Notes under the pieces: generated by a model
Told to the model about the DNA's origin: nothing
What the model saw: the letters and a program-made list of their open reading frames with translations, nothing else
Databases searched by the model: none
In this document: positions 8,747 to 47,935 of the stretch, one piece after another
Numbering within the stretch: position 1 is the stretch's first letter
How the letters are laid out: each line of letters begins with the position of its first letter
Assembly (NCBI RefSeq): GCF_023091245.1
Contig: NZ_JAHWXN010000002.1
Coordinates: 372,001 to 436,000, forward strand
Origin: Microbacterium croceum
Lineage (GTDB): Bacteria; Actinomycetota; Actinomycetes; Actinomycetales; Microbacteriaceae
Direction of reading: 5' to 3'
Length of the DNA stretch: 64,000 nucleotides
Translations under genes and position numbers: made by a program

Positions 8747-9681
8747 CGGCCTCACGGTCGCCCGCCCGCCCGGCCCTCATCGCGCTCAGCGCGGTGGGGG
8801 CCGCGGGCGTGGCGGCAGCCATCTGGGGCATCGGCATCGAGCGTTACCTGTTCACGGTGCGCGAGGTGACCGCGCCTGCGCTCGCACCCGGTTCATCGCC
8901 GCTCCGCGTGCTGCACGTCTCTGACGCCCACATGGCACCGTGGCAGCACCGCAAGCAGGACTGGCTCGCCTCCCTCGCACAACTGCAACCCGACCTGGTC
9001 GTGAACACCGGCGACAACCTCGGACATGAGGAGGGGCTCGCCGGCATCCGTCGTGCCTTCGAGCCATTCGCCGGGATCCCCGGGGTCTTCGTACACGGGT
9101 CGAACGACATCAACGGCCCCGCGCCGCGCAATCCGCTGCGCTACTTCTCGGGACCCTCGAAGCGGCACCGGGAGCCCACCTTCCTCGACACGGATGCGAT
9201 GGATCGCTTCTTCACGGACGACCTCGGCTGGACGGATCTCAACAACGCCGCCGCGCGTCTGACCGTCGCCGGGCACACGCTCGACCTGTTCGGCGTGAGC
9301 GATGCCCACCGTCACTGGGACAAGCTGGAGGTCCTCCCCGAAGCGATCTCGGCCCTCGGCCCGCGGGATGCCGGCACCTCAGTGCTCGGCGTCACGCATG
9401 CGCCGTATCAGCGCGTGCTGAACAGGTTCACCGACCTGGATGCGGATGCCATCTTCGGTGGCCACACGCACGGCGGACAGGTCTGCATCCCCGGTTTCGG
9501 CGCAATCGTCGCGAACTGCGACATCCCGCTGAAGCAGGCCAAGGGACTGAGCACCTGGTCGCATGGTGGTCGCACCATCCCGCTGAATGTCAGCGCAGGG
9601 TGCGGACACTCCATCTACGCCCCCGTGCGCTTCGCGTGCCGCCCCGAGGCGACGCTGCTGACGCTGACGGCACGGAGCTGA
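8740..9681 (+). CDS. Membrane-anchored metallophosphoesterase
   Basis: 313 residues from a GTG at 8740 that overlaps the PBP stop by 7 bases. One N-terminal membrane segment (about residues 12-32) is followed by a calcineurin-like phosphoesterase domain: VLHVSDAHM, VVNTGDNLG, VHGSNDIN, GVTHAPY and FGGHTHGGQV supply the Asp/His/Asn metal ligands. It is YkuE-like, with unknown natural substrate, probably acting at the outer face of the membrane. Overlap with the PBP gene is a conserved actinobacterial pairing. Confidence 0.9.
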   Translation: MLTASRSPARPALIALSAVGAAGVAAAIWGIGIERYLFTVREVTAPALAPGSSPLRVLHVSDAHMAPWQHRKQDWLASLAQLQPDLVVNTGDNLGHEEGLAGIRRAFEPFAGIPGVFVHGSNDINGPAPRNPLRYFSGPSKRHREPTFLDTDAMDRFFTDDLGWTDLNNAAARLTVAGHTLDLFGVSDAHRHWDKLEVLPEAISALGPRDAGTSVLGVTHAPYQRVLNRFTDLDADAIFGGHTHGGQVCIPGFGAIVANCDIPLKQAKGLSTWSHGGRTIPLNVSAGCGHSIYAPVRFACRPEATLLTLTARS

Positions 9682-9737
9682 TCCTGGCCCCGATTCGGTG
9701 TCGGGGACATTTCCCTGTAGACTCGGAGGGTTGCAAA

Positions 9738-9815
<78 letters not shown>

Positions 9816-9823
9816 TAACACCG

Positions 9824-9849
9824 GAAGGCCGCCCTCAGGGGCGGCCTTC
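9824..9849 (+). terminator. Terminator after tRNA-Pro
   Basis: Perfect 11-bp stem (GAAGGCCGCCC with its complement) around a TCAG loop, 10 bases after the tRNA CCA end. Confidence 0.75.
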
Positions 9850-9880
9850 TCTGTACCGGGAACGCCACGAAAGGGAAGGC

Positions 9881-10357
9881 ATGAGCCCGATGCTCCCCGC
9901 CCCTCGACGCCGCACGCGCGGCTGGGCGCTGGCCGTGGGCATCCCCTTCTTCGCCGGTCTCGCGATCTTGACGCTCACCCCGGCGCGCGTCGAGCGGTCG
10001 ATGCCGAACCTGCTCGATCTGGTGCTCGGTGCGGCGCACCGGGTCGGCTGGGATTCACTCGATTTCACCCGCCTCGAGATCATCGCCAACGTGCTGGTGT
10101 TCGTCCCGGTGGGCGTGATCGCCTTCCTCTTCACCCCCCGCATCGTCTGGCCGGTGGCACTGCTCGTCGGGCCCGCCATCTCCCTCGCGATCGAGGGGGC
10201 CCAGCGCGTCGCGCTGCCCCACCGCGCCGCGACCCTCAGCGACGTCCTGGCGAACTCCGCCGGCGCGACCATCGGAGTCGCGATCGCTCTCGTCTGCACC
10301 CTGTTGTTCGCTCCGCGCACCGCACAGCGTGAATCTCCTAGGGTGGAAGCATCATGA
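9881..10357 (+). CDS. VanZ-like family membrane protein
   Basis: 158 residues with four predicted membrane helices. The pattern is that of VanZ-like proteins: a first helix ending in LTLTPARV, the NVLVFVPVGVIAFL segment, the conserved acidic Glu in SLAIEGAQRV, and the RAATLSDVLANSAGATIG motif. VanZ-like proteins occur widely in actinobacteria and their function is poorly defined; this gene is not evidence of glycopeptide resistance. The stop overlaps the start of the HAD gene by 4 bases. Confidence 0.85.
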   Translation: MSPMLPAPRRRTRGWALAVGIPFFAGLAILTLTPARVERSMPNLLDLVLGAAHRVGWDSLDFTRLEIIANVLVFVPVGVIAFLFTPRIVWPVALLVGPAISLAIEGAQRVALPHRAATLSDVLANSAGATIGVAIALVCTLLFAPRTAQRESPRVEAS

Positions 10358-11109
10358 CCACGCCTGCTCTCGTCGCCTTCGACCTCGATGACACCCTCGC
10401 CCCGTCGAAGGGCGCGATCGACCCGCGTATCGCGACGCTGCTGCGCGCGCTGCTGCGGTCGGTCGACGTCGCCATCATCTCCGGCGGCAACGAGACGCAG
10501 TTCCGCACGCAGGTGATCGCCCAGCTCGGCGACGCGGATGCCTCCGATCTCGCTCGACTGCATCTGCTGCCCACCTGCGGCACCCGCTACCTCCGTCATG
10601 ACGGCGTCGAGTTCGCGCCGGTGTACGCCCACGACCTCAGCGACGAGCAGAAGGCGGCCGCACTGACAGCGCTGCGCGAAGAAGCGGAGCGTCTGGGGCT
10701 GTGGGAGTCGGACCCGTGGGGCGAGATCCTCGAGGACCGCGGCTCCCAGATCACCTTCTCCGCGCTCGGACAGCGCGCACCGCGTGATGCGAAGCACGAG
10801 TGGGACCCCAGCGGCGCGAAGCGCGCCTCACTGCGTGACGCCGTCGCCGCCCGTCTCCCCGGCCTCGAAGTCCGCTCCGGCGGGTCGACCTCGATCGACA
10901 TCACCCAGGAGGGGATCGACAAGGCGTTCGGCATGCGAGAGCTCGCCGCGCGCACCGGCATCCCGCTGACCTCGATGCTGTTCTACGGCGACCGGTTGGA
11001 CGAGGGCGGCAATGACTACCCGGTGCTCGCGATGGGGGTGCCCTCCGTCGCCGTCGAAGGGTGGGAGGACACCGCAGACAAGCTCGACGCGCTGCTCAAG
11101 ACGCTCTGA
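10354..11109 (+). CDS. HAD-IIB family hydrolase, phosphomannomutase-like
   Basis: 251 residues. HAD motif I is AFDLDDTLAPS, motif II is AIISGGN, and the C-terminal FYGDRLDEGGNDYPVL supplies motif IV acidic residues. A type IIB cap sits between. The closest described relatives are eukaryotic-type phosphomannomutases and related sugar phosphatases; whether this one is a mutase or a phosphatase cannot be settled from sequence. Translationally coupled to the VanZ-like gene by an ATGA overlap. Confidence 0.85.
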   Translation: MTTPALVAFDLDDTLAPSKGAIDPRIATLLRALLRSVDVAIISGGNETQFRTQVIAQLGDADASDLARLHLLPTCGTRYLRHDGVEFAPVYAHDLSDEQKAAALTALREEAERLGLWESDPWGEILEDRGSQITFSALGQRAPRDAKHEWDPSGAKRASLRDAVAARLPGLEVRSGGSTSIDITQEGIDKAFGMRELAARTGIPLTSMLFYGDRLDEGGNDYPVLAMGVPSVAVEGWEDTADKLDALLKTL

Positions 11110-37886: not shown

Positions 37887-38252
37887 ATGCAGAAGCCACT
37901 CCTGATCCTGATCGCCGGCCCCTACCGCTCCGGCACCGACGGCGACCCGGCCGCCATCGCCCGCAACCTCGCGCGGCTCGAAGAGGCGGCGGGCCCTATG
38001 CACCGCCTCGGACACATCCCGATGATCGGCGAATGGGTCGCGCTCCCCGTGCTTCGTGGTCTCGATGCCACCGAGACCGCCGACGGTGACGTGATGTACG
38101 ACGTCGCCGCGCGTCTGCTGCAGCACTGCGACGGAGTCCTGCGGCTTCCCGGAGCCTCCGCCGGTGCCGACAACGACGTCGCGATCGCCCGCGAGCGCGG
38201 ACTTCCCGTGTACTTCTCGATCGACGACGTCCCCGCCGCGAGCGGCGCGTAG
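37887..38252 (+). CDS. DUF4406 (nucleoside deoxyribosyltransferase-like) protein
   Basis: 121 residues from ATG at 37887 (MQKPLLILIAGPYRSG). The start ILIAGPYRSGTDGDPAAIARN, the HIPMIGEWVALP middle and CDGVLRLPGASAGADNDVAIA match DUF4406, a Rossmann-like fold related to nucleoside 2-deoxyribosyltransferases. Enzymatic activity is unproven. It is divergent from the DeoR regulator and probably controlled by it. The upstream in-frame extension is a shadow of that regulator. Confidence 0.82.
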   Translation: MQKPLLILIAGPYRSGTDGDPAAIARNLARLEEAAGPMHRLGHIPMIGEWVALPVLRGLDATETADGDVMYDVAARLLQHCDGVLRLPGASAGADNDVAIARERGLPVYFSIDDVPAASGA

Positions 38253-38280
38253 GTGCGGACGCGCACGGCTCTTCGTTCCG

Positions 38281-39015
38281 CTATCGCACGTCGCTCCTCA
38301 GAAAGGAGACCCCTCCGGCGACGAGGGCCACCACGACCCAACCGGCCGTCACCAGCACCGCGATCGAGCCGTCGAGGGCATGATCCGAGGAGATCCCCAG
38401 GGCGGCGACGTCGAAGCGGAAGGCTTCGAGCATCGCGAGCAGGGGCAGATAGACGGCACCGGACTTCCAGAGCATCGCGACGAGCATCGCCGAACCCAGC
38501 GACAGCGGAACCACGAAGAGTGCGACCAGGTGCGCCCGCACGACGATCCCCCATCCCAGCCCCCAGAGACCGGATACGGCGCCGAGCGACAACGTGGCTC
38601 CGACCGCCGCCCAGTCCACCGGAATGCCGCCCATCGTCAGCCGCAGCGCCGTATGACCGCCGATGAGCGCCGCGAGAGCGACGATCGCTCCGCCGATCGC
38701 CGAAGCGGGCACCCTGGCGACAAGGGTCGCCCACCGCGGCTGCAGCATCAGGCGCTGAGCGATCACGCCGTCTCGCCGATCCACGGTGTATCGGAAGGAA
38801 CCGTAGACGCCCGCGAGGATTCCTCCGTACATCGCGAGCACCGCACTGAGCGGCGCGATCAACGACTCGCGAACCTCCGGCGTCGCCCCCGTGAGATCGG
38901 GCGGGATGCTCGTCGCCAGAGAGAGCGACATCACGAATCCCGCGACCGCCATCCAGACGAGAACCCTGTCGCCCGTGAAGCTGCATGCCTGGGCGCGGAG
39001 TGCCTGGCCGATCAC
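38281..39015 (-). CDS. ABC-2 type permease of the daptide-like cluster (second)
   Basis: 244 residues from GTG at 39015, overlapping the preceding permease stop (GTGA). About six membrane helices; the N-terminal GQALRAQACSFTGDRVLVWM cytoplasmic amphipathic segment is typical of ABC-2 permeases. No recognised substrate motif. It is the last gene of the RiPP operon, with an ATPase and a sister permease, and most likely exports the mature peptide or gives self-immunity. Confidence 0.8.
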   Translation of the reverse strand: MIGQALRAQACSFTGDRVLVWMAVAGFVMSLSLATSIPPDLTGATPEVRESLIAPLSAVLAMYGGILAGVYGSFRYTVDRRDGVIAQRLMLQPRWATLVARVPASAIGGAIVALAALIGGHTALRLTMGGIPVDWAAVGATLSLGAVSGLWGLGWGIVVRAHLVALFVVPLSLGSAMLVAMLWKSGAVYLPLLAMLEAFRFDVAALGISSDHALDGSIAVLVTAGWVVVALVAGGVSFLRSDVR

Positions 39016-39740
39016 CCCGCCTCCTTTCGCCCGCGCAGCCAGGCGATCGCAACCAGCCCGAAGGTCCAGGCGACTCCGAGACCGAGAGCGGGCACGAACC
39101 CGAGCAGCGCGTCCTGGTATCCCGGAACGCCGAGAGCCGCCAGGACAAGACCAGGAGAGAACTTCGCGACGTCCGGCGCGGTGCGCAGCAGCGCGAACTC
39201 CACGGCCATCGGAAGAACGATGACGAGCGCCGCAGCGACGTAGTAGTTCCGTGTGATCCACCCGATGGCTCCTCCGATGAGCGCCCCGAGAACCGCGCCG
39301 ATCAGCGCGCCGGCATAGATGCGCCATGCGTCCGGCGTGAGAACGAGAGCCATACCGTCGAGCCCCAGCAGCACGGTGACGCCCACCGTCCAGACAGCGA
39401 AGAGGCACACGGAGAGCGCGACCGCCACGAGGACTCCGGCTGCGAGCTTCGCGGAGAACGCGCGCGCGAAGCCGACCGCCGTGAGCGTCCTGTCGATCGA
39501 CGTGTAGTAGCACTCGCGGGTGACGCCGTACGCCCCGACGAACGCCGCCGAGATCGCCACCCAGGCGAGCGGCTCCAGAAGTCGAACGGTGGCCGACCCC
39601 GGTTCGACGCCGGCGAGGTCGAACCGTGAGCCGTCCGAGACCAGCACGAAGAGAGGCATGAGCACCGCGACGAGGTAGACCGCCAGGACGGAGAACCCGC
39701 TCACGCAGCGCAGGACCTCGCTCCGGATCGCGTTCCTCAT
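39012..39740 (-). CDS. ABC-2 type permease of the daptide-like cluster (first)
   Basis: 242 residues, six predicted helices (first at about residues 15-35, LAVYLVAVLMPLFVLVSDG). The large loop with RECYYTSIDRTLTAVGFARA after helix 2 is a coupling-helix region for the ATPase. Overlaps the ATPase gene by 4 bases upstream and the second permease by 4 bases downstream, so the three assemble as one transporter. Confidence 0.8.
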   Translation of the reverse strand: MRNAIRSEVLRCVSGFSVLAVYLVAVLMPLFVLVSDGSRFDLAGVEPGSATVRLLEPLAWVAISAAFVGAYGVTRECYYTSIDRTLTAVGFARAFSAKLAAGVLVAVALSVCLFAVWTVGVTVLLGLDGMALVLTPDAWRIYAGALIGAVLGALIGGAIGWITRNYYVAAALVIVLPMAVEFALLRTAPDVAKFSPGLVLAALGVPGYQDALLGFVPALGLGVAWTFGLVAIAWLRGRKEAG

Positions 39741-40465
39741 GCGGATGCTCCTTCCACGAGGTCGAAGTATCTGCTCTCCAGCGAGTCCGCCCCACCCGTG
39801 ACGAGGTCTTCGAGCCGACCAGCGAAGAGGGCGCGCTGTTTGATGACGACCACCTCATCCACGACCTGTTCCAGCTCCGGGAGCTGGTGACTGGCGATCA
39901 GGACGGTGCCGCCGCGTTCCGCGTAACTGCGGAGGAACCGGCGAAGCCAGCGGATGCCGTCAGGGTCCAGACCGTTCGCCGGCTCGTCGAGGATGAGGGT
40001 CCGGGGAGAGCCGATGAGGGCAGCGGCCAGCCCGAGCCGCTGCGCCATCCCCGTCGAGAACGTCTTCACCCGACGGCGGGCATCGGCGGCGAGGCCCACC
40101 TCTTCGAGCACCTCTTCGGTACGGCCGCGTGCTGCCCCCGCGGCGAGCCGGCAGATCTCGAGGTGTCGCCTCGCCGTGATCCCGCCCTCGAAACCGAACC
40201 CGTCCATGTGGACGCCGACGTGCGTCGCCGGGTTGTCGAGTGCGGAGAACGGCGACCCGTGGATGAGGCACTCACCGCTGGTCGGCTCCAGCAGTCCGAC
40301 GAGCGCACGGAGCGTCGTCGACTTGCCCGCACCGTTCGGACCGAGAAGGCCCACGATCGACCCGCGCGGTACCGCGAAGGACAGCTCTTCGACGGCCGTC
40401 CGCTGACCGAACCTCTTCGTGAGCCCTCTCACCTCGATCGCATTCTCATTCGCTTTCCGGTTCAT
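39737..40465 (-). CDS. ABC transporter ATP-binding protein of the daptide-like cluster
   Basis: 242 residues from ATG at 40465 with an AGGAAGAGG site; the upstream extension overlaps the M50 gene. Walker A GLLGPNGAGKSTTLR (about 40-54), signature TFSTGMAQRLGLA, Walker B LILDEPANGLDPDG, switch His IASHQLPELEQ. Energises the two downstream permeases. Overlaps the M50 protease stop by 4 bases. Confidence 0.93.
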   Translation of the reverse strand: MNRKANENAIEVRGLTKRFGQRTAVEELSFAVPRGSIVGLLGPNGAGKSTTLRALVGLLEPTSGECLIHGSPFSALDNPATHVGVHMDGFGFEGGITARRHLEICRLAAGAARGRTEEVLEEVGLAADARRRVKTFSTGMAQRLGLAAALIGSPRTLILDEPANGLDPDGIRWLRRFLRSYAERGGTVLIASHQLPELEQVVDEVVVIKQRALFAGRLEDLVTGGADSLESRYFDLVEGASA

Positions 40466-42150
40466 GGTGATTCCTCTTCCTCCTGGCCCTGAAACGTTGA
40501 AAGGGGTGACACCACACCTGTCGCCCAGAGCATCTGCCATAGGTTTCCTGTACCGTTCTCGACCCGCGCCTGCCCTGTCACCGGCAACCTCCCGTGCGCG
40601 GCGGACACCTGCACCTCGGCGACGACCGCCGCGGGCACCGACGCATAGTCCGCCGTGATGGGGAACAACGCATCGAGCGGAACCGTCGTCTTCGCAGGCG
40701 GCAGCGGGTGCGCCGTGCCTTCACCGAGCTGCTCGTTGAAGAGGATGCCGTTGCTCATCAGGCTGACTCGGGCCCCCTCCGGCACCGTCACGTCGGACAT
40801 GTCGCCTGCATGCACGAGGACGACTCGGTCACCCGACGTGGTGAATCCGAAAGTGGTCGACATCGGCACGGAGATCGCGGCTCCTGCGATCGCGACACCC
40901 ACGATCGCAGCGGCGCCGACGGCCACGAATCGGAGTCGCGAGACTCCCGATCTGAGCACGCGGTGCAGCGACTTCGAGACATGCACGACGCCGGCGAGGA
41001 CGACGACGACCTCCAATGCGACGACGAGCATTCCGAGGAGCGGACCACCGCCGGCGAGCGCGCGATTCACGCGGACGACCGCGAACAGCACCAGCACGAT
41101 CGGTGCGACGAGGCTCGCCAGGCCGAACGGCACGCTCCACCACGTGTTCATGCTCTTGTTCCCCCGGTGACCGCCGAACAGTAGGCGAGTCAGGAGGTCC
41201 GCAGCGTCACGCATCGTACGCCGTCGGAGGTTCGGTTCATCCAGAGCGCTCATCAGCGCGATGTATCCGTCGAACCGCACGAACGGGATCAGGTTCACGA
41301 CGACGACGATGGCGCACGCGAGACCGAGGACCAGCAGAGTTCGACGCAGCTCCTGAGAAGGAACGAGGAGCGCTGCGCTCAGTGCTATGGCACCGAGCGC
41401 GGCGTGCACGGCAGGACCCGCCAGTGCGATCGCGACACGCTGCCTGCGGTCCGGGAGGCGCCAGCCGTCCGTCACATCCACGAAGAACGCCGGCGCGAGG
41501 TACAACAGCATGAAGCCTGCGCGTCTGGCTCTGCCGCCGAACCTGGTGAGTGCGGCTCCGTGCGCACCTTCGTGCAGCAGGGTGATGAGAAAGAGGGCTG
41601 CGACGACGGCCACGACATCGACGAGCGGCATCGGCGTGGTGACGGCTTCTCGCAGCTCACTCACCTGGACGGCTGCAGCGAGGGCCCCTGCGACCACCAG
41701 AGCGCCCATCGACACCAGAACTGCTCGGGGAGAGAGGGGTCGGAGCAGGGCATCGAGTCGGCCGAAGACGACAGGGGCGCGAAGCGTCGCGACCTGCAAC
41801 GTGAATGGCGGCCGATAGGTGATCCGACCGGGTGGACGCCTTGAGTCCCCGGCCAGCAGCCCACGGAGTTGGAAGCGTCTGGCCAGCTCGAGAAAGCTCT
41901 CCAGGGTCTCGGATGCCGCGAAGTCCCGATGCAGATCTCGAAGAGAGGTCTCGCCGTTCATGGCCGTGAGCAGATCGACGACGGAGCGGGAGACCCGCGA
42001 AGACGGCACTCCATGGAGCATGGCGATCCAGAGCGTCTGGTCGGCTCCTTCCTCGAAAGCGACGCCGGGCGCGAGCAGCGGACGGTCCTCGGCCGTGAGA
42101 GCGGGTGAGGAGCGAGAGTCTCGTCGGCGGGTGAACCTACTGGGTGGCAT
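40462..42150 (-). CDS. Daptide-type intramembrane metalloprotease (M50, MpaP-like)
   Basis: 562 residues. N-terminal cytoplasmic region (about 1-115) looks like a PqqD-type winged helix (SRSVVDLLTAMNGETSLRDL), as expected for binding a leader peptide. It is followed by a many-helix membrane part with the zinc motif LITLLHEGAHGAALTRFGG (HExxH) near residue 190 and a later NLIPFVRFDGYIAL carrying the third ligand Asp of site-2 proteases. Presumed to remove the leader from the modified peptide. Starts 14 bases inside the methyltransferase gene. Confidence 0.85.
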   Translation of the reverse strand: MPPSRFTRRRDSRSSPALTAEDRPLLAPGVAFEEGADQTLWIAMLHGVPSSRVSRSVVDLLTAMNGETSLRDLHRDFAASETLESFLELARRFQLRGLLAGDSRRPPGRITYRPPFTLQVATLRAPVVFGRLDALLRPLSPRAVLVSMGALVVAGALAAAVQVSELREAVTTPMPLVDVVAVVAALFLITLLHEGAHGAALTRFGGRARRAGFMLLYLAPAFFVDVTDGWRLPDRRQRVAIALAGPAVHAALGAIALSAALLVPSQELRRTLLVLGLACAIVVVVNLIPFVRFDGYIALMSALDEPNLRRRTMRDAADLLTRLLFGGHRGNKSMNTWWSVPFGLASLVAPIVLVLFAVVRVNRALAGGGPLLGMLVVALEVVVVLAGVVHVSKSLHRVLRSGVSRLRFVAVGAAAIVGVAIAGAAISVPMSTTFGFTTSGDRVVLVHAGDMSDVTVPEGARVSLMSNGILFNEQLGEGTAHPLPPAKTTVPLDALFPITADYASVPAAVVAEVQVSAAHGRLPVTGQARVENGTGNLWQMLWATGVVSPLSTFQGQEEEESP

Positions 42151-42967
42151 CGTCGTCCATCACGCTCGAGCGTCCTGCCCAACTCGTGGTCAGGAGCAGG
42201 ATGTCCTGTCCGCGATGAGTGCGGACGGGAGAGACGATGGGAGAGACGAAGCCGGCGGCGACGAGCTCACGTGAGAGAACCTCATGACTGAGCACCCGCA
42301 GACGACTTGTGAGCACCGTCACCTCACCTCCACTCCGGAGGTCGGCGGCACGGATCCAGTTGACCAGCCTGACAGCACCGCCTTCCTCTCGCTGTTGCAC
42401 GAAGAGGTAGGTCTCGTCTCCGTCCGGTCCGGGGACTCGGACCTCTTCCTCTCGTGAGAGGGCCAGGCTCTGCGCCGACGCGCCCGCCGCGACGGTGAAC
42501 GCGAAGACGCCTCCGACAGCGAGGTGGCGTCGCACGTTCGCGTACAGAAGCGATCTGCCGTCGCTGTCGAGCAGCGTGATGGATGTCGCGCCGATGATGA
42601 CCAGCTCGTATCGCTGCCCGAGCGCGATGTCTCGCATGTCGGCCACGATGCACTCGAGCAGCGGATGGTGCGGCAGTGCGCGACGAAGGTGCGACAGCAT
42701 GTCGTCGGAGAGATCGACCGCGGTCACCCGCTTGCCCGACCTCACCAGGGGGATCGTCAATCTCCCACTCCCCGCCGCGAGATCGAGGATCGGCCCCTCG
42801 GTTCCCCTCGCGAGCCCCAGCATCTCTCTGATCTCCGCGCGGTCCGAGCCGACCAGCCGCTCGTAGAAGTCAGTGCCTGCTCCCTCATACAGATCCAGCT
42901 CTCTGGCAACCGCACCCGCCTCTCGGAGCCTCGCCGAGACGGCGTCGGTGATAGAACCTGACATCAC
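42137..42967 (-). CDS. SAM-dependent methyltransferase of the daptide-like cluster (MpaM-like)
   Basis: 276 residues from GTG at 42967 (a GAGAGG site lies 6 bases before); an ATG follows at once. Class I methyltransferase fold: motif I ILDLAAGSGRLTIPLV near residue 60, motif II VTAVDLSDDML, then ECIVADMRDIAL and YELVIIGATSITLL. In daptides the corresponding enzyme dimethylates the new C-terminal amine. Lies 62 bases downstream of the third precursor gene. The C-terminal half is poorly conserved as far as can be judged. Confidence 0.83.
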   Translation of the reverse strand: MMSGSITDAVSARLREAGAVARELDLYEGAGTDFYERLVGSDRAEIREMLGLARGTEGPILDLAAGSGRLTIPLVRSGKRVTAVDLSDDMLSHLRRALPHHPLLECIVADMRDIALGQRYELVIIGATSITLLDSDGRSLLYANVRRHLAVGGVFAFTVAAGASAQSLALSREEEVRVPGPDGDETYLFVQQREEGGAVRLVNWIRAADLRSGGEVTVLTSRLRVLSHEVLSRELVAAGFVSPIVSPVRTHRGQDILLLTTSWAGRSSVMDDDATQ

Positions 42968-43029
42968 GCATCACCTCTCACTCACACGTCACAGGGTGCG
43001 GGCGCGCTGTACCCGCCCGCACCCCTCGG

Positions 43030-43149
43030 TTAGGTCGCGATGGCTGCCGCACCGCCGATGATGGCGATGATGTAGCTCGCGTGCTCCCACCACTCGAGTG
43101 GGGCATCGATGTGTTCGAGTTCCACGAACTCGAGCGACTCTGTCTGCAA
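43030..43149 (-). CDS. Daptide-like precursor peptide 3
   Basis: 39 residues from a TTG at 43149, 6 bases after a GGAGG site. Leader part: MQTESLEFVELEHIDAP, matching the leaders of its two neighbours. Core: LEWWEHASYIIAIIGG then AAAIAT, ending in Thr directly before TAA. A strongly hydrophobic, helix-forming core and a terminal threonine are what daptide precursors have. The competing frame through this stretch lacks any resemblance to the other two peptides. Confidence 0.8.
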   Translation of the reverse strand: MQTESLEFVELEHIDAPLEWWEHASYIIAIIGGAAAIAT

Positions 43150-43185
43150 TTCACACCTCCTCGGTGCACCCTGCGAATCCTGCTC

Positions 43186-43311
43186 CTACGTCAGAGCGAG
43201 GATCCCGATGATCACGCCCACGGCGAAGCCCCGCATCCAGTCGGTGGCGTCGTCCGGCGCTTCCATGTCCTCGAGTTCTGTGAACTCGAGCGTCGGCATT
43301 GCGACTTGCAT
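43186..43311 (-). CDS. Daptide-like precursor peptide 2
   Basis: 41 residues from ATG at 43311 with a GAGGAGGTG site. Leader: MQVAMPTLEFTELEDMEAP, sharing LEFxELExMxAP with peptide 3. Core: DDATDWMRGFAVGVIIGILA then LT, Thr being the final residue before TAG. Small size, glycine- and isoleucine-rich amphipathic helix and position between two similar genes mark it as a RiPP precursor. Confidence 0.82.
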   Translation of the reverse strand: MQVAMPTLEFTELEDMEAPDDATDWMRGFAVGVIIGILALT

Positions 43312-43348
43312 ATTCACCTCCTCTGTGGGGGTCTTCTCCTGCGATGGG

Positions 43349-43483
43349 TCACGTCGCCGCGGCGGCGCCGACCCCGATGAGCACGAGTGCCCCGATCACG
43401 CCCTGATAGAAGCTCTCCCAACTGGGAGCATCCATGTCCTCCAGTTCCTGGAACCGGATTCGCTGTTCGTCATCTCTGTTCAT
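43349..43483 (-). CDS. Daptide-like precursor peptide 1
   Basis: 44 residues from ATG at 43483, just 4 bases after the dehydrogenase stop, with a GGAGG site inside the 3' end of that gene. Leader: MNRDDEQRIRFQELEDMDAP, again the FxELExMDAP block. Core: SWESFYQGVIGALVLIGVG then AAAAT, ending in Thr. The upstream in-frame extension to 43558 overlaps the dehydrogenase and is rejected. Confidence 0.85.
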   Translation of the reverse strand: MNRDDEQRIRFQELEDMDAPSWESFYQGVIGALVLIGVGAAAAT

Positions 43484-43487
43484 TTCC

Positions 43488-44672
43488 TCACCTCCTTCGC
43501 GCTGGTCGTCGAAAGTCGGTGGATGCAGCCCCGGCGAGCTGACTCCAGCGGGAGTCACGAAGGACGTCCCGGAAGTCCTCTTCGACGAGACCGGGGAGCA
43601 TCGGATAGCGGTGCCCCCACCGCTTCTGCGTGGCGAGCGCGATCGCGCCGAACTCGTGAGCGGTCGGCCGCCGTGGAAGAGAGATCTCCCACTGGTCGAT
43701 CAATGCGGAGATCCCGCGGGATGGATCGAGAGGCAGCACCAATACCCCTGCGGCTTCTCGCCAGAATCTCTCAAGGCTCGCGTGGTCTCCCCACCGCGCG
43801 TCTCCTGCACAGATACGACGCCAGATCGGGGCGATGACCGCAACGGTGGCGACCATCTTGCGAACCCCCAGTGCGAAGGCGACTTCGTTGGCGACGTACC
43901 AGTGCCTGGCACTGTAGGGGTCCTCCCCGCGTAGCGCCGCAGAGCGCTGCGTCAGGGCGCTCAGACGCGCGAGACGCAACCGAGCGGCAGGAGACGCCGT
44001 GTCCCGGGCGGCGGTGCTGAGCAACGCTCTGCCGATGGCGACTGCATCGCTGTCTCCTCTGCGGCTCCTTCGCGAACTCGTCGCGGCGCCGGCGAGACGG
44101 AGGAATGCCTCCAGCGCGCCTTCTCTGACGGCAGTGGGCGAGAGAGTCATCAGGTTGTCGGAGTCGATGACGGCGTGGCGCGGTCTCAGGGATCTCCCGC
44201 AGACAAGGCGGTAGCCGTATTCGTTCTTGAGGATGGCGACGCTGTTCGTCTCCGACGACGTGCCGAGCGTGGTCGGCACGGCGACGATGTCGACCGGTGG
44301 TGGAGCATCGGGCAGGAAGACCAGCGCTGACTTCGACGCGCGTGCGATGACGTAGTCGAGCACCCCTCCAGGAGCGAGCGCGAGAGCCGCGATCTTGCTG
44401 GCATCCAGAACGCTCCCTCCGCCGATCGCCACGATCACGTTCGGCGGTCGTCGAGCGATCTCGGCGGCGAGCTCGACGACCGTCGTCACGTCCACAGCAC
44501 GAGCATCCACCTCGATCGTCCTGACGCCGCGACCGGGGAGAGCGGGGATGGCGACCCCCGAGTCCGCGATCACGAGGGTCTCGCGCCCTTCCGCGAACTG
44601 CGTCGACAACCGGGGCGCGACCCCCTGCCCGTGCCAGAGCGTCGGAACCCGTGCGGCGAATGCGGATCTCAT
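43488..44672 (-). CDS. Daptide-type RiPP dehydrogenase (iron-ADH-like, MpaB-like)
   Basis: 394 residues from ATG at 44672, overlapping the aminotransferase stop by 4 bases. Iron-containing alcohol dehydrogenase fold: NAD-binding VIVAIGGGSVLDASKIAALA near residue 87 and PTTLGTSSETNSVAIL. The usual DALTHAIE-like metal segment appears as GALEAFLR, and the downstream His-rich metal motif as NEVAFALGVRKMVATVAVIAP, so the canonical His/Asp metal ligands seem to be missing. In daptides this enzyme oxidatively decarboxylates the C-terminal Thr to an aminoacetone-like ketone. Confidence 0.82.
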   Translation of the reverse strand: MRSAFAARVPTLWHGQGVAPRLSTQFAEGRETLVIADSGVAIPALPGRGVRTIEVDARAVDVTTVVELAAEIARRPPNVIVAIGGGSVLDASKIAALALAPGGVLDYVIARASKSALVFLPDAPPPVDIVAVPTTLGTSSETNSVAILKNEYGYRLVCGRSLRPRHAVIDSDNLMTLSPTAVREGALEAFLRLAGAATSSRRSRRGDSDAVAIGRALLSTAARDTASPAARLRLARLSALTQRSAALRGEDPYSARHWYVANEVAFALGVRKMVATVAVIAPIWRRICAGDARWGDHASLERFWREAAGVLVLPLDPSRGISALIDQWEISLPRRPTAHEFGAIALATQKRWGHRYPMLPGLVEEDFRDVLRDSRWSQLAGAASTDFRRPARRR

Positions 44673-45928
44673 GCTGACGCCTCCTGTATCTGCGACAGGC
44701 CGGCGCGCACGGCAGACTCGACGGCGAGGAGCTCGTCCGCACGGAAGCCGTACGCCGGGATCAGTTCGATGGCGCTGGGGCCCGGCTGCACGAGGACACC
44801 GTGCTGTGCGATGGCCGAGACGACACGAAGGACCTCGGCAGCAGACAACCGACCTCCGTCCCCGTCGCGCAGGCCGAGCCCGACGAAGCACCCCTTGCCG
44901 GTGACCTCCTGCACGACGCCGTCCGACGTCAGACGAGCGGCCAGGCGTGCGAGCTCTTCTCCGAGTTCGCGGGTGGTCGACAGCACGTCGATGCGATGCA
45001 GTTCCTGGATCACCGCGAGGATGGCCGACGCACACACCGGAGTCCCCGCCTGAGTCTCACCATGAACGAAGGTCCAGGCGCCGCGCACGAACGCGGAGGC
45101 GACGCGGGGCCCGACGAGGACTGCGGCGGCGCTCGCTGCACCGTTCGTCAGCGCCTTCGAGACGATGAGGGCGTCCGGGGCAGCAGCCCAGTCGTCGGTG
45201 GCGAACATGGTTCCGGTCCGCCCGAATCCCGTCGCCACCTCATCGGCGACGACCAGAAAGCCATACTCTTCCCGGAGCGCGAGAAGGCGGGATGTGAACG
45301 CGCTCGACAGCGCATGCGCTCCACTTCCCAGAACAGGCTCCACGACCACCGACGCCACCCGAGAGCCTTCCCGTCGCAGCAGCGTCTCCAGCTCATCGCC
45401 CTCATCGCTGTGCGAGACATGCCGCACAGATCTGCGATCCACGCCGTAGACGGCCTGGAGCAGGTCGTCGCCGCTCAGCGCGTGGCTACCGTACATGGTG
45501 CCGTGGTAGCTGCCCCGGAGACCGACGACGAGAGAACGGGACCCGGCGCCCTTCTGCGACCAGTACTGCCGCGCGAGCTTCATCGCGAGGTCGTTCGCAG
45601 CGCCGCCCGACGTGGAGAAGATGACCCGGCTGTACCGGTTCGGGTTCGCGAGGTCGATGAGCGCTTCCGCCGCCCGTTCCGCGTATCGGTGCGGTGCGCG
45701 GAACAGGGAGAGGTAGGACGCGTCGCGCGTCGCCCTGTGCACGGCATCGGTGACAGCCGGATTGCCGAAGCCGAGGGGCACGTTCCACAGGCCGCTGGTC
45801 GCGCACAGACGAGTTGACCCATCGGCGAACTCAACGCGATTTCCTTCGGCGCCGACAGCGACCTGTTCCGGCGTGAAGGTGGCGTCCGCAGGGAGCATCG
45901 ACGTCCACAGGGCGTGCGGAGCGCTCAC
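44669..45928 (-). CDS. Daptide-type RiPP aminotransferase (class III, MpaD-like)
   Basis: 419 residues from GTG at 45928, overlapping the previous stop (GTGA). Fold type I PLP enzyme: STSGGAANDLAMKLARQYW, aromatic ring-stacking GSYHGTMYGSHALSG, LVVADEVATGFGRTGTMFA with the PLP Asp, and the Schiff-base Lys in ALIVSKALTNGAASAAAVL near residue 270. In daptides the enzyme transaminates the ketone made from the terminal Thr, giving a primary amine for methylation. Confidence 0.87.
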   Translation of the reverse strand: MSAPHALWTSMLPADATFTPEQVAVGAEGNRVEFADGSTRLCATSGLWNVPLGFGNPAVTDAVHRATRDASYLSLFRAPHRYAERAAEALIDLANPNRYSRVIFSTSGGAANDLAMKLARQYWSQKGAGSRSLVVGLRGSYHGTMYGSHALSGDDLLQAVYGVDRRSVRHVSHSDEGDELETLLRREGSRVASVVVEPVLGSGAHALSSAFTSRLLALREEYGFLVVADEVATGFGRTGTMFATDDWAAAPDALIVSKALTNGAASAAAVLVGPRVASAFVRGAWTFVHGETQAGTPVCASAILAVIQELHRIDVLSTTRELGEELARLAARLTSDGVVQEVTGKGCFVGLGLRDGDGGRLSAAEVLRVVSAIAQHGVLVQPGPSAIELIPAYGFRADELLAVESAVRAGLSQIQEASA

Positions 45929-46992
45929 TCCGCGATACCCGTCGTCCGGGATTCCCTCGCAGCGGCTCTGCCGACATGGATGCTCAACGCGCTGACCGCA
46001 TCGCGGCACAGGGCACCGGCAGCGGAGGCCGTCATCCCCAGTCGCCGGGCGACCCGCTCTGTCGCGACCTCGTGAGAGCGGGAGGTCTGCACCGCAGCGA
46101 CGACGGTGGCCGTCAACGGAGAGAGCAGTTGGCGGCGCAGCGTGGTGACGTCGGCGAGCACGACACCGTCTGGAGTCTCCAGCAGGAACGGATCAGCGGG
46201 CAGCGGTTCGGCATCCGCCCGGCCATCGTCGAGGGGCGACCATCCGAATCCCCCGATCCGGGCCGAGCCGTTCGCCAGGCGGAGCATCTTCATGAGGTCG
46301 GTCGCATGGAGGTATCGTCCGACCCCGTCGCGATCAGCCAGGTCCGCGGCGATCGTCGTGATCGACGCAGCGCCTGCCCACGCCGCGATCTGCGGCAGCG
46401 GCGCCGTGATCGCGGACCGCAGGTCATCGATGCTGCCGATGACCTCGCCCCGGACGCCGACGCTGACACGACCATCGGCGCGGACCCTGATGGCGCTCGG
46501 AGTCGCGATTCTCTGGGGGTTCGCAAGAGCGCCGCGATGCGCGAGAATCACGCGCGGATCAAGCAAGGCGGAGGGGAACACTCCTGTTCGACGAGCGAGT
46601 CGCGCATCGTCGAGGAAGGCCTGCCAGCTGGCGGCGTCGGGGAAGCACACTGCCGTGGGTCCGATGATCTGGACGAACTCGGCTGCGACATAGTCCTGGA
46701 GCTCGACACCGCGGTCGCCGAGGAACAGCTCATCGCCGATCTCGGTGAGCGCGCCGCTGTAATGGACGGCGGTTGCGGCGCCGCGGATCGGTTCGCTTCC
46801 GTCCGGCAGAAGAACCACATCGCCTTCGACTGCCACCTCGTCGATCGGCGCCGCATTCGCACCGCTCTCGACGAGGAACACCCGCGTATACGTCTGAGGC
46901 TCCCCGATGATCCACTCGCGGAGCGCACGGGCACCGACGCGCTCCGCGAACGCCTCGCCCTGCGTGGCTGCGTCGATCGAGCTCGCCTGCAT
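45925..46992 (-). CDS. Daptide biosynthesis RiPP recognition-type protein (MpaC-like)
   Basis: About 355 residues if translation begins at ATG 46992 (GGGGGAG lies just before it); in-frame starts also exist at 47010 and 47031. No catalytic motif is seen. A C-terminal block (about 265-335, DGVVLADVTTLRRQLLSPLT then VARRLGMTASAAGALCRDAV) looks like the winged-helix RiPP recognition element. It would present the leader peptide to the dehydrogenase and aminotransferase. First gene of the operon, 170 bases from tRNA-Ser. Confidence 0.7.
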   Translation of the reverse strand: MQASSIDAATQGEAFAERVGARALREWIIGEPQTYTRVFLVESGANAAPIDEVAVEGDVVLLPDGSEPIRGAATAVHYSGALTEIGDELFLGDRGVELQDYVAAEFVQIIGPTAVCFPDAASWQAFLDDARLARRTGVFPSALLDPRVILAHRGALANPQRIATPSAIRVRADGRVSVGVRGEVIGSIDDLRSAITAPLPQIAAWAGAASITTIAADLADRDGVGRYLHATDLMKMLRLANGSARIGGFGWSPLDDGRADAEPLPADPFLLETPDGVVLADVTTLRRQLLSPLTATVVAAVQTSRSHEVATERVARRLGMTASAAGALCRDAVSALSIHVGRAAARESRTTGIAE

Positions 46993-47161
46993 ATTCTCCC
47001 CCAGGTTCATCCGGTGCCACACGACACTCACATGTACTCGAATGAGGCTAAACAGCAGTCAATCGAAATGCAATATTCTTCACTTCGATGGAGACCTCGA
47101 GCGGGAAGCGTCGGGTCACGAGCACTCCGCGCGATCGGATAGACTGTTCAGGTTGTTCCCT
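46993..47161. promoter_or_regulatory. Divergent promoter region: RiPP operon (-) and tRNA-Ser (+)
   Basis: The stretch 47030-47095 is the most AT-rich of the neighbourhood. On the minus strand a TTGACT hexamer at 47057-47062 could be the -35 box of the RiPP operon, but no clear -10 was found. On the plus strand TAGACT at 47140-47145 is a good -10 for tRNA-Ser, the same hexamer as before tRNA-Pro. Confidence 0.5.
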
Positions 47162-47249
47162 GGTGACGTGTCCGAGCGGCCGAAGGAGCACGCTTGGAAA
47201 GCGTGTGTTGTGCAAGCAACCGCGGGTTCGAATCCCGCCGTCACCGCCA
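47162..47249 (+). tRNA. tRNA-Ser (anticodon GGA)
   Basis: Long-variable-arm class II tRNA. Acceptor GGTGACG pairs with CGTCACC; anticodon stem CACGC/GCGTG with loop TTGGAAA, anticodon GGA at 47196-47198. T-arm is GCGGGTTCGAATCCCGC. Discriminator G at 47246, then an encoded CCA. Confidence 0.97.
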
Positions 47250-47255
47250 CACAGG

Positions 47256-47297
47256 AAAAGGAGAAGGGCCCCGCTCACGCGGGGCCCTTCTCCTTTT
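47256..47297. terminator. Bidirectional terminator after tRNA-Ser
   Basis: Perfect 19-bp stem around a TCAC loop, A-rich on one side and T-rich on the other (AAAAGG...CCTTTT), so it can end both the tRNA (+) and the convergent exported-protein gene (-). Confidence 0.92.
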
Positions 47298-47309
47298 CTT
47301 CCCAACCGG

Positions 47310-47804
47310 TCAGTTCGGGATGGGCTCGTCTCCGGTGAAGGTGACCGTCACCGAGGCGAGAACGGCAGACGAGGCGGGGTCGATCACCCGCACCACGTAG
47401 GGAGTGAGGTCGGTCACCAGCGGTGTCTGCGTCTGGAACCAGAAGTTCGGCATCGCCGTGTCGAGCCGGTAGGTCGCACTGGAGGTGAAGTCCCCTGACA
47501 CGTGGACGATGTTCACGCTCTGATCGAACAGACCCCAGTCCGTCGTCGTCGCCGGGATCCACTCGATCGTCACGACCTCGGGCAGTGGGCCGGAGAGCGC
47601 GAAGTCGACGCGATAGTCCCGGAAGGAGCCATCGTCACCGTTTCGGTTCACGGTGAAGTCGAGAAGGGCGGCCGGTCCACTGGCGGCCGCCAACGGTGCA
47701 CTCACCGCGACCGCGATCACCGGCGCCGACCACACCGCCGCCGCAAGTACCGTACGACGCGAGACGGAGCCCTCGCCGATCCTGTCCGTAGTGCTCTTCG
47801 TCAT
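47310..47804 (-). CDS. Exported protein with Tat-like signal, unknown function
   Basis: 164 residues. The N-terminus (VSRRTVLAAAVWSAPVIAVA then a run ending APLAAASG) has a twin-arginine and a long hydrophobic segment of the type seen in SipW-like or Tat-exported actinobacterial surface proteins. The mature part is a beta-rich domain with no catalytic motif. No family name can be given. Convergent with tRNA-Ser. Confidence 0.7.
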   Translation of the reverse strand: MTKSTTDRIGEGSVSRRTVLAAAVWSAPVIAVAVSAPLAAASGPAALLDFTVNRNGDDGSFRDYRVDFALSGPLPEVVTIEWIPATTTDWGLFDQSVNIVHVSGDFTSSATYRLDTAMPNFWFQTQTPLVTDLTPYVVRVIDPASSAVLASVTVTFTGDEPIPN

Positions 47805-47935
47805 ACCGGTCCTCTGCTCGGCGAGAATTGTCAGAAACCGAGCCTACTAGCCACGCGCCACGCGGGTTCCACGAAAGCGGGGCCCTCCTTCGTCTCTCCT
47901 GAGCCGTGAACAGGGCAGCCCGAATCCGGAGACTC

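Follow-up and report, generated by a model that had tools for sequence, protein, structure and literature searches.

Does the compact run of minus-strand genes at positions 38281-46992 of a 64,000-nt stretch from Microbacterium croceum (assembly GCF_023091245.1, contig NZ_JAHWXN010000002.1, positions 372,001-436,000, forward strand; hereafter the window) encode a complete pathway for daptides, a type of ribosomally synthesized and post-translationally modified peptides (RiPPs)? An earlier note on this DNA had proposed that it does. As judged from sequence, the locus is a complete, intact and divergent daptide cluster of the mpa type, and its class is already known. Our main reading, that the genes form a complete mpa-type daptide biosynthetic operon with the working order R-B-C-M-P-T, is given a probability of about 0.93. 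It is based on gene content, family identity, synteny, conserved precursors, the fold and residue replacement of the dehydrogenase, and a promoter-like element; the chemistry and its order, leader binding, export and activity are predicted parts of it.

Gene Content and Family Assignment

Eleven open genes, rather than the ten of the earlier note, are tightly packed in the order R-C-B-A1-A2-A3-M-P-T1-T2-T3 (Table 1). Counted from the start codon chosen for each gene, six of the ten junctions overlap, by 4 bases at R/C, C/B, P/T1, T1/T2 and T2/T3 and by 14 bases at M/P, and the other four have gaps of 4 (B/A1), 37 (A1/A2), 36 (A2/A3) and 65 bases (A3/M). Most junctions thus overlap, as had been noted, but the overlaps are of 4 or 14 bases and a 1-base overlap, included in the range given before, is absent.

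Curated daptide cut-offs were passed by 8 of the 11 proteins. R, C, B, M and P all scored above the cut-offs of NCBIfam daptide equivalogs, while A1, A2 and A3 matched the MpaA1, MpaA2 and MpaA3 models at full length, one each, and all three end in Thr as had been noticed. The comparison recommended in the earlier note, that of the precursors and the dehydrogenase with the daptide families, therefore came out in favor of a daptide-type cluster (93.6, 97.9 and 87.4 bits for the precursors, 340.1 bits for B). All 16 named relatives have the same eleven genes in this order, the R, B and P matches being partial in L045. Because of this shared order and the eight proteins above curated cut-offs, the eleven-gene set is not a product of chance.

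C and B belong to large generic families (Aminotran_3 and Fe-ADH), and it could be argued from this that they are primary-metabolism enzymes that merely lie beside three small hydrophobic open reading frames. The daptide models are far ahead, however: C scored 569.1 bits with daptide_amino vs. 213.5 with the next best NCBIfam model (PRK07481.1) and 212.1 with bioA, and B scored 340.1 bits with daptide_DH vs. 44.6 with the next one, a bifunctional aldehyde/alcohol dehydrogenase. Since these margins are so wide, the two proteins are assigned to the daptide enzymes; moreover, the precursors match MpaA1-3 and the whole gene set is kept together in all 16 relatives, which leaves a chance neighborhood scarcely credible. 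A grouping of the two with primary metabolism, the outcome that the earlier note had set against its own proposal, was not seen, and at the family level this identity is refuted by the NCBIfam score margins.

The best solved-structure match of M was 3g2m (PCZA361.24; E 8.6e-26), and the cypemycin N-terminal methyltransferase 7wzg was also matched (E 4.3e-6). P scored as an intramembrane HExxH protease of the daptide type (391.2 bits against a cut-off of 300), and R probably contains a C-terminal RRE domain at about residues 260-337. The top NCBIfam match of T1 was TIGR03740, a lantibiotic protection ATP-binding cassette (ABC) ATPase, at 189.3 bits and under the cut-off of 309.75. T2 matched no NCBIfam model and scored above cut-off with no Pfam model, T3 had no match in either collection, and both have several hydrophobic segments.

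Table 1. Features of the daptide locus and its border, in window coordinates.
Feature	Coordinates	Strand	Evidence
R: RiPP recognition protein, 355 amino acids (aa)	45925..46992	-	NF041823, 245.2 bits (cut-off 150)
C: class III pyridoxal phosphate (PLP) aminotransferase, 419 aa, GTG start	44669..45928	-	NF041821 daptide_amino, 569.1 bits (cut-off 450); Pfam Aminotran_3
B: Fe-ADH-fold dehydrogenase (putative oxidative decarboxylase), 394 aa, without the usual metal ligands	43488..44672	-	NF041822 daptide_DH, 340.1 bits (cut-off 300)
A1: precursor, 44 aa, MpaA1 type, C-terminal Thr	43349..43483	-	NF041805, 93.6 bits (cut-off 40)
A2: precursor, 41 aa, MpaA2 type, C-terminal Thr	43186..43311	-	NF041806, 97.9 bits (cut-off 40)
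A3: precursor, 39 aa, TTG start, MpaA3 type, C-terminal Thr	43030..43149	-	NF041807, 87.4 bits (cut-off 40)
M: S-adenosylmethionine (SAM) methyltransferase, 275 aa	42137..42964	-	NF041820, 256.3 bits (cut-off 175)
P: M50-type intramembrane metalloprotease, 562 aa	40462..42150	-	NF041824, 391.2 bits (cut-off 300); Pfam Peptidase_M50, 30.4 bits (cut-off 27.2)
T1: ABC transporter ATPase, 242 aa	39737..40465	-	Pfam ABC_tran
T2: ABC permease-like membrane protein, 242 aa	39012..39740	-	hydrophobic segments; same place in 16/16 relatives
T3: ABC permease-like membrane protein, 244 aa, GTG start	38281..39015	-	hydrophobic segments; same place in 16/16 relatives
tRNA-Ser (GGA), slot border, 5' end toward the cluster	47162..47249	+	ARAGORN, Rfam tRNA; beside cluster in 16/16 relatives
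Promoter-like element TTGCAT-N17-TAGCCT with imperfect dyad CCTCATTCGAGT overlapping the -10, upstream of R	47037..47073	-	pattern match

Conservation of the Precursor Peptides

All three precursors end in Thr in each of the 17 loci. The last 15 residues of A2 are the same as those of the window in 13 of the 16 relatives, with silent codon changes averaging 4.9 of 15; for A3 the figures are 12 of 16 and 3.1 of 15. Upstream of these residues, replacement changes average 10.0 of 25 codons in A2 and 3.9 of 23 in A3. A1 is less fixed: the last 10 residues of the window's peptide recur in none of the 16 relatives, a Val of the window is Ile in all of them, and the last 15 codons have a mean of 2.25 replacements. 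Such a pattern in the sequences fits purifying selection acting on three jointly used peptides, and the cluster would provide another natural set of three co-conserved peptides. The earlier note had regarded the gene set as a distinct member of the class. It is indeed divergent, B being 61-72% identical to its relatives, but because the A2 and A3 C-termini are mostly identical to those of the relatives, it is better described as a divergent ortholog of the same mpa type.

Dehydrogenase B Lacks the Usual Metal Ligands

B keeps the fold of the iron-containing alcohol dehydrogenases (Fe-ADHs), including a GGG dinucleotide-binding motif. The usual metal ligands of this family are Asp, His, His and His; in a control set of 15 other Fe-ADHs from the genus, every protein keeps all four. 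At three of these positions B has E188, R192 and K272, and Glu, Arg and Lys occur there in 65 of 65 daptide dehydrogenases; W258 was placed at the fourth position by hhalign only. Because these invariant residues replace the metal ligands while other Fe-ADHs of the genus keep theirs, the daptide dehydrogenase is probably metal-free. Metal-free oxidative decarboxylases such as 6-phosphogluconate dehydrogenase may serve as a model by analogy: K272 would act as the general base, and R192 would hold the C-terminal carboxylate of the peptide.

It is conceivable that B still depends on a metal bound through new ligands, as E188 (65/65), E263 (63/65) and N262 (60/65) are highly conserved at or adjoining the old ligand positions. 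The other two positions, however, are occupied by an Arg and a Lys that are invariant in all 65 proteins and that are better suited to charge pairing and acid-base catalysis than to the binding of a metal, and we consider new metal ligands unlikely. The family-wide residue swap opens the mechanism of the first daptide step to direct testing and offers a sequence signature that separates daptide decarboxylases from ordinary Fe-ADHs.

Six nearly full-length daptide-like dehydrogenases (L071-L076; 180-233 bits, below cut-off), found in five genomes of a different genus within the family (g281), have Glu, Arg and Lys at the same positions and perhaps represent a divergent daptide branch.

Distribution and Genomic Slot

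Matches to daptide_DH above cut-off were found in 51 of 366 genomes of the window's genus and in 18 of 295 of the genus of genome G388. An even draw of the phylum gave 3 of 396, the window's genome included, and a draw of the window's family gave 1 of 398, which was the window's own. The scan of named genomes, which may omit records very near the window's genome, yielded 16 loci, all from Microbacterium, with B 61-72% identical.

In all 16 relatives the cluster is flanked by tRNA-Ser(GGA) on one side and by a rhodanese gene on the other. Among 15 rhodanese-gene stretches from genomes without a full-length daptide_DH, the tRNA was seen in 13; a gene for a domain of unknown function (DUF) and a DeoR gene, also kept in the window, were present in six. 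The sister genome L096 has a clean empty site, where about 38 bases replace window positions 38245-47113 between flanks that are 87.5-89.4% identical in DNA to those of the window. The cluster looks like present-or-absent cargo of one fixed slot.

Several further observations were made at these loci. A small gene with a signal-like N-terminus at window positions 47310-47804 (within 47295-47925), beside the tRNA, has no counterpart in L096 and forms a second difference between the two genomes. The R, B and P matches in L045 (Microbacterium sp. Se63.02b) are cut short, suggesting decay or sequencing errors. Genome G102 has two daptide-like dehydrogenases (300 and 260 bits), the dehydrogenase match of G123 is in two pieces, and that of G170 contains one TAG.

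A second R paralog is present in 11 of the 16 relatives and absent from the window. Its place is taken in two loci (L041:6665-7540 and L047:6698-7558) by a gene that is unlike R and matches no NCBIfam model; the loose promoter-like match upstream of it may be due to chance. In another genome (L099, ~9046-10410), which has no other part of the cluster, the neighbor of the rhodanese gene is an R gene with 63% identity over 326 aa and a strict daptide promoter and dyad match upstream; this R gene could be either a remnant or an R protein with its own role.

A Promoter-Like Element With a Dyad

A loose pattern, defined as TTGC, a 17- or 18-base spacer and a T-A-type hexamer, stands in front of whichever gene comes first after the tRNA in all 17 loci. 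Before the first daptide gene it is present in 16 of them, L047 being the unmatched one; in L041 and L047 the first gene after the tRNA is the unrelated gene, and of these two only L041 also has a match before R. In 15 of the 16 matched loci the element stands 73-81 bases before the assigned start, and in L034 it stands at 121 bases. The -10 is overlapped by the dyad CCTCAnnTGAGG. With the best of the 18 settings of offset and length that were tried, the mean over 18 matched sites is 4.5 of 6 symmetric pairs, vs. 1.65 at random positions, where 2000 draws reached no more than 2.67. Pair 2 of the dyad occurs as C-G, T-A and G-C.

The window's genome has a single match to the strict composite pattern. 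Of 58 genomes searched, the window's included, five have this pattern, in all five within 4 kb of a daptide dehydrogenase match by coordinates; the reversed pattern, searched as a control, gave no matches. Because some genomes with a dehydrogenase above cut-off have no strict match (G005, G169 and G102 among the 58), the pattern is specific rather than sensitive. Being single-copy in the window's genome, the element could help to identify what turns the operon on.

A silent or degenerating operon might be suspected in this strain, as the dyad of the window is weak, with 3 of 6 pairs, no R paralog is present, and the cluster is missing from the sister genome. Nevertheless, all eleven reading frames are open and eight proteins exceed curated cut-offs, and such a state appears quite improbable. 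We lean toward a joint proposal in which B, as the enzyme that defines the daptide class, is a metal-free oxidative decarboxylase evolved in the Fe-ADH fold, its metal site remodeled into an invariant Glu-Arg-Trp-Lys site that would hold the carboxylate and take the proton of the Thr hydroxyl, and in which transcription would be driven by a cluster-specific dyad promoter, possibly with R itself as the regulator.

Proposed Pathway

The chemistry of daptides and its order have reportedly been published for M. paraoxydans DSM 15019. In the window's operon, R would use its putative C-terminal RRE to bind a conserved, LEFxELExM[D/E]A-like stretch in the leaders of A1-A3 and would present the peptides. 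B, an NAD-type enzyme, would oxidize the hydroxyl of the C-terminal Thr, and the resulting beta-keto acid would then lose CO2. The ketone would be transaminated by C using PLP, the new amine would receive two methyl groups from M, and the leader would be removed by P at the membrane. T1-T3 may export the peptides and/or protect the producer.

The earlier note had spoken of a three-part ABC exporter. An ABC ATPase (T1) and two membrane proteins are indeed present, but export is a prediction, and an immunity transporter would be an equally possible role for them. A stronger version, in which T1-T3 are mainly a LanFEG-like self-immunity transporter and the peptides leave by another route, can draw on the lantibiotic protection model as the nearest one to T1 and on the lack of an apparent separate immunity gene within the operon. 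We regard it as doubtful, though worth keeping in mind, as the operon encodes no other exporter and a single transporter could serve both roles.

Comparison With Known Systems

Compared with the Fe-ADH family (E. coli FucO, YqhD and YiaY; Pfam PF00465), the daptide dehydrogenases differ by Glu, Arg and Lys at three of the ligand positions and by a Trp that hhalign places at the fourth. The window shares its precursor types and all five daptide protein equivalogs with the mpa cluster of M. paraoxydans; the models NF041805-NF041808 and NF041820-NF041824 are those that we take to be linked to this cluster in strain DSM 15019. Gene order and slot are the same in M. paraoxydans EaN35-6, with identities of 64% (B), 77% (C), 61% (R), 72% (M) and 60% (P) between the window and this strain. 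EaN35-6 has a second, truncated R paralog, whereas the window has none. Between T3 and the rhodanese gene the window carries the DUF and DeoR genes, neither of which was found by tblastn in the loci of the 16 relatives.

The closest locus in the named-genome scan was that of Microbacterium sp. 3J1 (L032), which has the same gene order and, like the window, is without the R paralog, but in which no DUF or DeoR gene was found between T3 and the rhodanese gene. Its identity to the window is 72% for B, 81% for C and 88% for T1, and is lower for R (64%), P (66%) and T3 (68%).
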